Shown here in pieces: positions 17,372 through 61,797 of a stretch of DNA of 64,000 nt. Location of the stretch: the NCBI GenBank assembly GCA_003612585.1, contig RAZH01000004.1, forward strand, positions 186,001 to 250,000, read 5' to 3'. Within the stretch, counting starts at the first letter, position 1, and each line of letters opens with the position of its first letter. The stretch is from a bacterium 1XD42-54. GTDB taxonomy: Bacteria; Bacillota; Clostridia; Lachnospirales; Lachnospiraceae. The notes under the pieces were generated by a model. It worked only from the letters and a program-made list of their open reading frames with translations, did no database searches and was not told the origin of the DNA. Both the position numbers and the translations under genes were made by a program.

Positions 17372-17407
17372 ATGTAGTACTACAATCCTCTCATGCATTT
17401 TTATTTC

Positions 17408-19249
17408 CTACTCTGTAAAAGGAATCACTGCCATACCAGCAAAGGCCTGGCCGTCTTCCGTCTTTCCTCCAAGGATAAATTCAAATTCGCCCGGGTATGC
17501 AGCGCTGTCCATCATGATAAACGGATCAAAGTCCACACTGTACAGCCCGTTTCCGAAGTCTTTCAAAGTGTCCGCCAATGCAGGCGCATATTTCAGCCGA
17601 ACATTCGTAAAGCCCATACCGAACAGAAGCTCCGATTCCACCGGCTTCGCGTCACACGCGAAGGTAACTGTATAAGGAATCGGCGGCATTGACAGGCTAA
17701 ATGGCAGTACTTCGCTGATTTCGACCAGTCGGAATTCCTCATCCGCATGCTTTTCGAGAGCTGCCAGAGTGGAAGATACGGTTTCCCGGTCTGCCTGCGC
17801 AATTGCATCCAACGCTTCCTGCTCTTTACCGTCATCCATCAGCGCTTCCGCCTGTGAAATCAATTCCGCATTGTCCGTTGTATAAGTCTCGTGCAGCGTA
17901 TTCTTCAACTCGGTCAATTTCTCAATTTCTTCTGAATACAACATCTCATGCAGGTTTTCGAAATCCCGCATCGTCTGCCAGCCATTCTGACTGTAAACCG
18001 TTGCCTGATCGCGGTAGGTCAGATGTTCCTCCATCTCTTTTGCGGGATTCTCCATCTGGTCAATCTCGTCTACCGTTCCGGCAAGCGGATGAAGCGGCAA
18101 AAACGGCAGCTGACAGGGACGGCCAAACGCAGTCCAGGCAGTCGTCAGCACCGGTGTCTCTGCCAGATCAAAAATCGTCGCCTCAATCGTGGAGCCTGTA
18201 CAGATTTTTCGTGTGGACGTGTCATGCGGCGACGCGCCAGGTCCGAAAGAATCCTCATGCTCCGTGCCTTCATAATGCGTGGAAAGCACCTCGATCATAT
18301 CCTCCAGAGAAATGGTGGATTCCGGTTTGAATGCATACGGAAGCCCCATTGTATCCACATCCCAGGACTGATCCAGCAGAATTTCCATTGCATATTTCTG
18401 GCGCAGTACATTGTACGGCGTTCCATACGAATCAGAATCCTGATAAGCCAGGGCAAAATCAAAATCACTGTAATCGCCCTCCACAGCCGGTTTATACCAG
18501 TTCATTTCAATTGCATGGGAGATCAAATCCTCTGAATAGTACATCTCTTCTACGTCGTTGATCCCGTGGAACGTGTAATGATTCGGAATCGCTACGACCA
18601 TATCGTCCGGAATACGCGCTGCAATGTATCTGCGGCCACTGGCAATCTGAATCATAAAAGCCTCTTCGCTGTCCGCCACAGTATACGCGCGTCCCGACGG
18701 CGCATAGCCCCATTCCTCCACCAGTTCTATGATAATATTCAGCGCATCGCGCGCGCTCGTCGCCCGCTCTGCAACAATACGGCGCACATTGTATTCAATC
18801 CCTCCGTCAGTCAGACGGCTTTCATCCAGAATGTTTTCCTTTGATTCTGCATTGTTGTTGCTGACAATGCAGACACCATTTTCATTCAAAAAAATATCGG
18901 CACCGGAAAAACCGCGGTTGGCGTCACGCACCTGAGACCAGTAATAACCAAAGGTACTTTCCACCTGCGGTATGGCCGCCCTGCCTGTTTCCGCCGGAAG
19001 CACCGTTCCCTCCGGCCACTCTGCCGCCTCCACATACCCGTGGCGGACCACGCACCGTCCAATATCATCTTCATTGTGGCCGACCATAACACGGCCCGTA
19101 GCCGAAACATCCTTTCCGACGACAATTGTCATACAATTCAGCGGCAGCTCATCGGCCAACACCTGCGCGGCGGACACCGCGTCCGGAACCACGCACGTCC
19201 CGGTAATCATTACTAACAAAGCAAGCAGACAGGAAAGTCTTTTTCTCAT
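17408..19249 (-). CDS. secreted C69-family dipeptidase
   Basis: A 613-residue protein with a signal peptide (MRKRLSCLLALLVM...VSA, about 27 residues). A C69 (PepD-type) N-terminal nucleophile hydrolase domain follows. The predicted nucleophile is Cys39 in LNCMTIVVG, and VGHNEDD follows as in the family. The catalytic domain extends to about residue 470, then a helical region and a C-terminal beta-rich domain of unknown role. It is probably exported and cleaves short peptides outside the membrane. No LPXTG anchor was seen. It converges on tmcAL with only 36 bases between. Confidence 0.88.
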   Translation of the reverse strand: MRKRLSCLLALLVMITGTCVVPDAVSAAQVLADELPLNCMTIVVGKDVSATGRVMVGHNEDDIGRCVVRHGYVEAAEWPEGTVLPAETGRAAIPQVESTFGYYWSQVRDANRGFSGADIFLNENGVCIVSNNNAESKENILDESRLTDGGIEYNVRRIVAERATSARDALNIIIELVEEWGYAPSGRAYTVADSEEAFMIQIASGRRYIAARIPDDMVVAIPNHYTFHGINDVEEMYYSEDLISHAIEMNWYKPAVEGDYSDFDFALAYQDSDSYGTPYNVLRQKYAMEILLDQSWDVDTMGLPYAFKPESTISLEDMIEVLSTHYEGTEHEDSFGPGASPHDTSTRKICTGSTIEATIFDLAETPVLTTAWTAFGRPCQLPFLPLHPLAGTVDEIDQMENPAKEMEEHLTYRDQATVYSQNGWQTMRDFENLHEMLYSEEIEKLTELKNTLHETYTTDNAELISQAEALMDDGKEQEALDAIAQADRETVSSTLAALEKHADEEFRLVEISEVLPFSLSMPPIPYTVTFACDAKPVESELLFGMGFTNVRLKYAPALADTLKDFGNGLYSVDFDPFIMMDSAAYPGEFEFILGGKTEDGQAFAGMAVIPFTE

Positions 19250-19283
19250 TCGAATCCTCCTTCAAACACCCTTGTTCTTTTTG

Positions 19284-19352
19284 TACAACAGCGAGTATGC
19301 TTTGTTTGCACACTCGCTGTTGTAGTCTAACATAAAATGACAACTTGTTCAA
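19284..19352 (-). promoter_or_regulatory. promoter of the C69 dipeptidase gene with overlapping inverted repeat
   Basis: On the minus strand TTGAAC (19347-19352), a 17-base spacer and TAGACT (19324-19329). A perfect 13-bp inverted repeat, TACAACAGCGAGT and ACTCGCTGTTGTA (19284-19296 and 19312-19324), begins at the -10 edge and covers the predicted start point. It looks like an operator rather than a terminator because no T run follows. Confidence 0.5.
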
Positions 19353-19422
19353 TTATTATTCTCCATTTTAGCAGAATTTTAAACAAACAGACGCTCTGTT
19401 ACTAAGTATTTTCTGTTATTTC

Positions 19423-19595
19423 TTACGATATTTCTATCCATCGGCAACTAAGCCGGCTTCCATTTTGCACAGAAAGTCCGCTCACACCTTGCAAGTATGG
19501 ATTCTCGTCATCCTGAAACTTAGACTTCAGTTCGCCATTGACTGAAACGCTGATCTGATTCGCCTTTGCCGCAACGCAAAGCCGATATTCCTCCG
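19423..19595 (-). pseudogene. C-terminal remnant, beta-sandwich domain like that of ADP-ribosylglycohydrolase-family proteins
   Basis: The minus frame reads ...EEYRLCVAAKANQISV, then VNGELKSKFQDDENPYLQG and VSGLSVQNGSRLSCRW before a stop. The pattern of a strand with VNG, a D...PYLQGVSGL turn and a final strand is typical of concanavalin-like C-terminal domains, such as those at the end of some clostridial ADP-ribosylglycohydrolase-family proteins. The upstream part of any such gene is missing and replaced by the terminator of the NlpC/P60 gene. I treat it as a gene relic; the exact parent family is uncertain. Confidence 0.45.
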
Positions 19596-38696: not shown

Positions 38697-38778
38697 TGCC
38701 GCTGGCCGGACTCGAACCGGCACGGTGTTACCCGCTTGATTTTGAGTCAAGTGCGTCTGCCAATTCCGCCACAGCGGC
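38697..38778 (-). tRNA. tRNA-Leu (anticodon CAA)
   Basis: On the minus strand the acceptor stem GCCGCTG pairs with CAGCGGC. The D arm TGGCGGAATTGGCAGACGCA, the anticodon loop CTCAAAA (anticodon CAA) between CTTGA and TCAAG, a long variable arm and GGTTCGAGTCC in the T arm are all typical of a class II leucine tRNA. The CCA end is not encoded. The 188 bases from 38779 to lysA hold no gene; they include a CTGCTGA/TCAGCAG inverted repeat near 38898-38943. Confidence 0.95.
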
Positions 38779-43690: not shown

Positions 43691-43802
43691 AAGATCACTC
43701 CCGTTTTTATTCTATCCTATACATATATCGTATGCATCCGGAAGAAAATTGCTTGCATCCAAGTCCTTTGCTGTACTATACTGGGAAACAGATTTATCGG
43801 AC

Positions 43803-43880
43803 GCCACCGGATGTGCAGCACAAAAACGGGGTTCCGACGCAAACAAGTCACCCCTTATTTTGTGCTGCACATCTGGTGGC
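43803..43880. repeat. structured intergenic hairpin element, copy A
   Basis: Outer arms GCCACCGGATGTGCAGCACA and TGTGCTGCACATCTGGTGGC pair with a single mismatch, extended by AAA/TTT. Inside, GGGGT and ACCCC pair around the loop TCCGACGCAAACAAGTC. The element at 61690-61765 has a different outer stem but the same internal core. It lies between a LysM gene and the aroC promoter. Only this pair was found by eye. Confidence 0.7.
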
Positions 43881-43917
43881 TGGCTACAATTAAAGTGTGG
43901 ATTGCACACATCGGGAA

Positions 43918-51628: not shown

Positions 51629-51671
51629 TTTTGCAGTTAATATTATTTATTATTCAGGGAGGAGAAAAATC

Positions 51672-61646: not shown

Positions 61647-61689
61647 TTCCTCCGGATGTTACAATTTTGCTTCCAATTACAAACAGGAC

Positions 61690-61765
61690 GAACCCGGACA
61701 AACGGTACAAAACCGAGATTCCCGCAAAAAAGTCACCTCTTGTTCCGTACCGTTTACCCTGGTTC
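61690..61765. repeat. structured intergenic hairpin element, copy B
   Basis: Outer arms GAACC.GG..AAACGGTAC and GTACCGTTT..CC.GGTTC pair. Inside, GAGAT and ACCTC pair around TCCCGCAAAAAAGTC. The core matches copy A (43803-43880), with compensatory base changes in the inner stem and a wholly different outer stem. It lies between the substrate-binding protein and ATPase genes, within the operon. Confidence 0.7.
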
Positions 61766-61797
61766 TGATTGTGATAAAAGTCCCGTGAATTATCCGA

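Follow-up and report, generated by a model that had tools for sequence, protein, structure and literature searches.

Two hairpins with long self-complementary arms lie on the plus strand of the window, that is, of the whole stretch of 64,000 nucleotides analysed here, which belongs to the genome designated G000. Copy A begins with a left foot GGACG (43799 to 43803), the last G of which is the first base of the left arm of 23 nt (43803 to 43825), as delimited by the fold and the covariation of the stem. It is followed by the conserved tip AC-GGGGT-TCCGACGCAAACAAGTC-ACCCC-TTA (43826 to 43857), whose inner stem is formed by GGGGT (43828 to 43832) and ACCCC (43850 to 43854), and the right arm of 23 nt (43858 to 43880) then leads into the right foot CTGGCTACA (43880 to 43888), for which the family consensus is CTGACTTTG. 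Copy B comprises a left foot GGACG (61686 to 61690), a left arm (61690 to 61712), the tip CC-GAGAT-TCCCGCAAAAAAGTC-ACCTC-TTG (61713 to 61742) with an inner stem of GAGAT (61715 to 61719) and ACCTC (61735 to 61739), a right arm (61743 to 61765) and the right foot CTGATTGTG (61765 to 61773); its orthologue in the sister species G062 is locus L209. Both hairpins had been predicted at these positions, and both fold as described and well above shuffled sequence, with z-scores on the plus and minus strands of -10.1 and -8.3 for copy A and of -3.5 and -5.1 for copy B. The original prediction covered the stem-loop alone. The conserved feet (GGACG..., ...CTGACTTTG) lie outside it, as do the outer inverted repeats that are present in better preserved copies of the family. 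In copies A and B these repeats are decayed and barely recognisable; the whole element of copy A probably extends from 43780 to 43914 on the plus strand, its ends having been placed by visual comparison with L056, the orthologue in G062.

The change of the inner stem between the two copies had been described as compensated, which is correct for one pair (G:C to A:T) and incorrect for the second difference of copy B, an A.C mismatch. The loop of copy B is 2 bases shorter than that of copy A, which explains why a core pattern of 21 nt, searched with as many as three mismatches, misses copy B and has a single match in the window, namely, copy A (mean in shuffled sequence 0.04). Comparison with Rfam left the hairpins without a match at the gathering score, and a relaxed search with three loci returned microRNA-hairpin families alone, far below their gathering scores. 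The sole Rfam match at the gathering score in the window is a tRNA gene on the minus strand (38697 to 38778).

Extent, layout and decay of the repeat family

The covariance model R1, which was made from G000 copies, yields 49 rows at E ≤ 1 in the window's own genome. Subtraction of 11 reverse-strand duplicates and of three rows with E > 0.01 leaves 35 distinct loci (E ≤ 0.01), so that the two hairpins are by no means singular. In G062, 128 rows at E ≤ 0.01, including 20 reverse-strand duplicates, correspond to at least 108 loci, a lower bound inasmuch as 150 of 887 candidates were scored. The completeness of the two genomes is 99.98% (G000) and 82% (G062). A genus-wide model search in 47 genomes found matches in these two alone and none in the 45 others, and among 397 genomes of the bacterial family six have matches at E ≤ 1e-5 (G000, G245, G218, G193, G401, and G406); the counts of both searches are lower bounds, because 91 candidates per genome were scored under stricter filters in the former and ten per genome in the latter. 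The match in G401 (L170, G401:C16:5513) is probably unrelated and matched by shape only. This locus is a very long GC-rich palindrome with a fold of -154.9 kcal/mol. None of six pattern matches in viral contigs was upheld by the model. Named genomes, scanned with the pattern, gave at least 80 stretches, and 47 of those listed stem from one uncultured Lachnospiraceae MAG (CAOJHI contigs); the other 33 listed stretches contain no full-length model match and four partial ones at E ≤ 1, the best at 0.04.

The layout of the family was deduced from 128 parsed copies, 29 from G000 and 99 from G062. A typical copy reads GGACG - arm - AC - GGGGT - TCCG..CAAACAAGTC - ACCCC - TTA - arm' - CTGACTTTG, with a main stem of about 23 bp (22 to 24) and a tip of about 30 nt. 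Each base of the GGACG foot is kept in 95 to 100% of the 119 copies that align on it with at most one mismatch. The arms vary most at positions 9 to 16 and least in their inner AAAA and at positions 4 and 7, and the 58 G062 copies of standard layout have 58 distinct arms and 29 tip types. Weaker pairing continues beyond the feet, where the pairing is better between own than between swapped flanks in 58 of 109 copies and worse in 32; the mean duplex values are -10.5 (own) and -8.5 (swapped) on the plus strand and -6.2 and -5.0 on the minus strand. The excess on the plus strand comes largely from a G/T-rich composition, because it is seen in own and swapped flanks alike. In the 119 aligned copies, C is rare 3 to 31 nt to the left of the GGACG foot (0 to 19%, mostly below 10%) and less so on the right. 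Where both neighbouring genes were called, 11 copies lie between convergent, 16 between divergent, and 73 between codirectional genes, and according to crude ORF calls the copies occur in both orientations relative to genes.

Several details of individual copies deserve mention. By eye, the minus-strand sequence of the tip (GGGGTGACTTGTTTGC..CGGAACCCC) resembles the joined feet (GGGGCTGACTTTG../..GGACGCCCC), a likeness that might reflect an extra transposase-binding site or an inverted dimer, and GTTTGC resembles the outer repeat GTTTCGC. Directly upstream of one G062 element lie 4.9 tandem copies of a 21-bp unit (L050, 1418 to 1521) similar to the left foot of this element and the beginning of its arm. 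Another G062 locus (L293, 4053 to 4288) harbors two opposite copies about 235 bp apart, beside a segment homologous to window positions 17406 to 19594; the window has no copy at the corresponding place, at about 17406.

The pairing of the stem is conspicuous. In seven aligned G000 copies (A, B, and five more) with 28 stem pairs, 90.8% of the cells pair and 18 pairs have changed two-sidedly; none of 500 shuffles reaches the observed values of pairing and two-sided change, and sliding the partner by 1 to 3 columns lowers the pairing to 43 to 56%. At 22 stem positions of all 128 copies, 2705 of 2816 pairs are Watson-Crick, and the mismatches include 28 of the type G.T or T.G and 34 of the type A.C or C.A. 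Selection on an RNA stem should let G.U outnumber A.C on the transcribed strand. Since G.T is as rare as A.C, wobble is not favoured on either strand and RNA selection is not supported, with the reservation that matching of the arms by templated correction would make this test a blunt one. The G062 orthologue was recognised by its flanks for 19 of the 29 G000 copies. Among 410 comparable stem pairs, 14 differ on both sides, 11 of them from Watson-Crick to Watson-Crick, and 29 differ one-sidedly. The mismatch resides in G000 in 20 of these 29, and G000 is therefore not maintaining the structure well.

Five sites with an element in G062 and without one in G000 were examined, among them window positions 51632 to 51640. 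At one of them, C42:7077 of G062, about 122 bp are cleanly absent from G000, where the repeat is at most 5 bp long. At C27:6539 and C42:13722, G000 appears on visual inspection to have kept a portion of the outer repeat, which suggests that it has lost its copies there, and the remaining two of the five sites are not clean. At window positions 51632 to 51640, G062 carries a copy (L069/L292) with 91 to 93% identity on both sides and about 100 bp of further sequence, and ATTTT[A/G]CAG adjoins the site in both species. Two proposals on the stem were rejected. The idea that the arms are copied from the target conflicts with the empty-site sequence at window position 51632, which by eye lacks the arm. 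A function of the stem as guide matching the insertion site finds no signal in the values of own and swapped flanks (6.52 vs 6.54 on the left, 66 copies; 6.48 vs 6.58 on the right, 67 copies).

Young relatives and the register of their insertion

The outer inverted repeats are of the type TAGGTAATTGCGAAA[C/G]. When up to one mismatch is allowed, the outer motif GTAATTGCGAAAC occurs 47 times in G406, 52 times in G193, and 53 times in G218, compared with 6, 7, and 2 occurrences of the reversed control; the corresponding counts are 12 vs 2 in G000, 9 vs 1 in G062, and 5 vs 2 in G245. In G406 a hairpin matched by R1 lies directly within the outer repeats (L171), hairpins of like layout are found inside them in G218 and G193, and the G000 copy C11:156580 (L298) has an exact repeat outside its hairpin.

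The copies of G218, a genome of another genus, are uniform, as 24 of the 26 parsed ones are exactly 143 bp long (TAGG...CCTA). Target duplications of 9 to 14 bp flank 19 of the 26 copies and are seen in one of 193 swapped flank pairs; their length is 11 bp in seven copies, 12 bp in five, 10 bp in three, 9 bp in two, and 13 and 14 bp in one each. A TA target duplication, which had also been considered, is displaced by these longer ones. The bases past the duplication read NNNRRAAAGGAG, and in 17 of the 19 copies a Shine-Dalgarno sequence follows whose AAGGA begins at an offset of exactly 6 nt from the duplication, to the right of the element in ten and to its left in seven, thus in either orientation. 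The same 38 flanks, followed for up to 100 nt, contain six other AAGGA. A wider scan of G218 retrieved 31 duplication-bounded units, some of them composites of neighbours, with AAGGA at offset 6 in 23 and at offset 7 in one; the remaining seven comprise five that directly adjoin another copy and two with GGGAG or CAGGAG close to that position. Offset 6 recurs in two of three copies of G193 (the third has AAGGT) and in the single one of G406. Shine-Dalgarno sequences are also enriched close to the copies of G000 and G062, where AAGGAG was counted for 124 copies 16 times on the right and 32 times on the left, compared with 7 and 10 for the control GAGGAA. A duplication search in these two genomes found none of 52 Shine-Dalgarno-bearing copies reaching 9 of 10 matches at offset 6, and 0 to 2 of 52 at eight other offsets.

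The hairpin is dispensable for insertion, since a 50-bp copy without it (L312) exhibits the same duplication and register; a second short copy without hairpin (L323, 84 bp) has also moved. Copies are clustered in L325 of G218 and also in L324, L328, and L329. In L325 successive copies are separated by an identical 11-bp duplication, as if each enters the same place adjacent to the Shine-Dalgarno sequence. The tips of L322, L325, L328, L329, L339, L344, and L349 (G218) contain a nested second hairpin (GACATGAGGAGGGACCC...GGGAGGAGTCCTGGTGTC), and another hairpin repeat (TTGTCCCCGATTTTATATCGGGGAATTA) is located within the arm of L347 and L349.

The young copies also document how the stem changes. 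In two G218 subfamilies of 15 and nine copies, 8 of 360 and 7 of 216 stem pairs have changed two-sidedly, and shared descent may stand behind some of these changes. Fourteen of the 15 fall at pairs 13 to 16 of 24, where four of the 15 one-sided changes (5 of 720 and 10 of 432 arm sites) are also located. Positions outside the arms have also changed often (67 of 1425 and 62 of 855), so that no raised mutation rate of the stem is needed. Compared with one L320 copy, L335 and L345 are each identical over 143 bp except for a single two-sided transversion.

An IS1182-like element with the same ends

The 15-base end has at least ten matches in 14 of the 397 genomes of the bacterial family, compared with never more than five for the reversed control. 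In the single contig of G380 there are six exact matches on one strand, one of them adjoined by a transposase gene. This transposase contains the domain DUF772 (PF05598, E 1.5e-14, score 54.2 vs a cut-off of 23.1). Its best NCBIfam match, obtained with a fragment of 453 of the 498 codons of the frame, is NF033551, IS1182 (E 2.1e-22), at 79.7 bits and thus below the curated cut-off of 270, which is why we name it IS1182-like. Twenty regions were fetched, several of them ending at contig ends, and seven contain a unit of 1.74 to 1.76 kb with a duplication of 10 to 12 bp (five in G380, including a tandem pair, one in G243, and one in G090). AAGGA is present at offset 6 in all seven. Ends of the type TAGGTAATTGCGAAA / TAGGC(A/G)TTTGCGAAA are common to the hairpin elements of G218 and G406 and to these insertion sequences (IS) of 1745 to 1764 bp, and the IS duplications of 10 to 12 bp at seven loci compare with 9 to 14 bp in 19 of 26 hairpin elements of G218.

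A protein search with the transposase in 28 genomes gave matches in 13, some of them weak. It found no relative in G000, none at E ≤ 0.001 in G218, G406, G245, G078, G249, G453, and G161, and weak ones only in G193, G386, and G232; the mobiliser of the youngest copies, those of G218, is therefore not found in their own genome. G062 harbors one broken IS copy in two pieces (76% and 64% identical) with one stop and matching ends; by eye, AAGGA lies 18 nt from its end, and a duplication is absent. G053 has pieces of such an IS and no hairpin copies. An intact transposase of this kind is present in G380.

Other candidate mobilisers were tried and rejected. Transposases of the Y1/RAYT type (PF01797) are absent from G000 and G062. 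An IS630/Tc1-type MITE would be expected with TA duplications and a DDE_3 transposase; the duplications are 9 to 14 bp long instead, and PF13358 was not found in G062, G218, G193, G406, and G245, with one broken fragment in G000. PF01609 transposases are likewise absent from G000 and G062. Among the PF01609 loci fetched, a repeat pair lies near the gene at L365 alone, and it belongs to a hairpin copy that adjoins the gene instead of enclosing it.

Origin of the hairpins and comparison with known systems

In our view the hairpins are MITEs belonging to an IS1182-like element, with a target set exactly by the Shine-Dalgarno sequence, a reading to which we assign a probability of about 85%. It builds on the family with its copy numbers and ends, on the duplications and the register of the young G218 copies (with a few in G193 and G406), and on an IS that shares ends and target. 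The "folded end of a mobile element", one of three options named in the original prediction, proves right in view of the many copies in two of 47 genus genomes, the duplications in a related genus, and this IS. The element would consist of outer inverted repeats that enclose a hairpin of 22 to 24 bp with conserved feet and tip. Judging from the shared ends and target, it would be, or have been, moved in trans by the IS1182-like DDE transposase, whose own same-ended element of 1.75 kb is probably autonomous. The first target cut would fall at a constant distance of 6 nt upstream of the Shine-Dalgarno sequence (RRAAAGGAG) and the second one 9 to 14 nt further upstream. This would give the duplication of 9 to 14 bp and let the gene downstream keep its ribosome-binding site, which makes the place a safe harbour. 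The old copies A and B of the window presumably arose by the same homing, given their membership in the family.

Within this scheme, the complementarity of the stem is maintained at the DNA level, most likely by templated correction on a quasi-palindrome or a folded intermediate, which would turn a change of one arm into the matched change of the other. A competing view, to which we give distinctly less credit, is that selection acts at each transposition and that well-folded copies alone move. The persistence of the hairpin layout across genera agrees with it, and the frequent changes outside the arms remove the need for a raised mutation rate of the stem; however, L312 and L323 moved without a hairpin. 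Independent mutations followed by selection should moreover leave more intermediates than the single two-sided swaps by which L335 and L345 depart from L320, otherwise identical over 143 bp, and templated correction, which would not leave them, is preferred. More speculative still, and in our opinion unlikely, is the combined notion that the Shine-Dalgarno sequence is recognised as DNA by a family of transposases, which direct their elements to a fixed position upstream of it, and that a folded single-stranded or self-templated state, through which the hairpin passes while it moves, rewrites the mid-stem pairs, thereby giving each new copy a stem "barcode" of its own.

A structured RNA, be it a 5'-UTR element, an sRNA, or a processing hairpin, that is selected for its folding and dispersed by any means could account for the very strong pairing and covariation, for the many intergenic copies near ribosome-binding sites, for a tip common to other genera, and for the better pairing of the outer flanks on the plus strand, the latter being largely compositional. 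This option, which the original prediction had derived from selection on structure, is nevertheless very improbable. The main stem has no G.U preference on either strand (a weaker argument under templated correction), one-sided mismatches pile up in G000, 45 of 47 genus genomes lack the family, Rfam offers no family for the hairpins of the window at the gathering score, and the copies occur in both orientations relative to genes, as far as crude ORF calls tell, and to the Shine-Dalgarno sequence (ten and seven). Spread of a REP-type palindrome on a folded single strand by a Y1 transposase (RAYT/IS200-like) is largely refuted, because G000 and G062, at the completeness given above, lack such an enzyme, target duplications exist, and a different partner with the same ends was found; what recalls such repeats is the high-copy intergenic palindrome with a short foot tag (CGTC on the reverse strand), as in the CGTC REPs outlined in PMC3733652. 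Intrinsic terminators or chance hairpins, which GC-rich stems between genes might bring to mind, are refuted as origin by the conserved feet, tip, and outer repeats, by the duplications, by the species restriction, and by the lack of enrichment at convergent gene ends; the behaviour of the family copies is not that of ordinary terminators.

Transposons with a preference for harmless insertion sites attract wide interest. Here a ribosome-binding signal is apparently used as an address while the gene behind it is spared, and such sparing would explain how about 100 copies can be borne. The compensated stem swaps provide natural material on how palindromes keep their arms matched without RNA selection, and they caution against taking covariation among the copies of a multicopy hairpin as proof of a functional RNA. 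A single experiment would suffice to test so exact a register. Among the open-access literature matches listed, with subscription papers outside the scope, none describes Shine-Dalgarno-targeted transposition or this repeat.

Bacterial MITEs are short and non-autonomous, share their ends with an IS, are flanked by duplications, and are mostly intergenic, and the hairpin elements are alike in all these respects. Unlike MITEs in general, they have an internal stem that varies in matched pairs around a constant tip and feet, and their target is a functional gene signal at a fixed distance. Integron attC sites are a further parallel, as they also present unique stems around fixed sequence signals. 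Set against what is generally known of attC sites, the elements differ in being dispersed, in their target duplications, in a DDE-type partner, and in the tip as their conserved part.

The likeness to the IS1182 family lies in the partner, with its DUF772 and DDE transposase, its length of about 1.75 kb, and its short inverted repeats. IS1272 of staphylococci, which has 16-bp inverted repeats and is counted to the IS1182 family, makes new insertions without duplications that replace a stem-loop or inverted repeats, according to the relevant passages of PMC5678879; the IS1182-family elements ISPse1 (PMC3281130) and ISCaa15 (PMC3196728) appear in the lists of these sources with 4-bp repeats. The elements studied here differ from these three, as far as the cited passages describe them, by duplications of 9 to 14 bp located 6 nt upstream of AAGGAG. 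CGTC REPs have stems of 8 to 9 bp and loops of 4 to 5 nt in the description by Di Nocera et al. (2013, PMC3733652). In the features covered there, the hairpin elements resemble them as high-copy intergenic palindromes with a CGTC-like foot tag and without a Y1 partner, and they are set apart by a stem of 22 to 24 bp, a tip of about 30 nt, and the presence of outer repeats and duplications.
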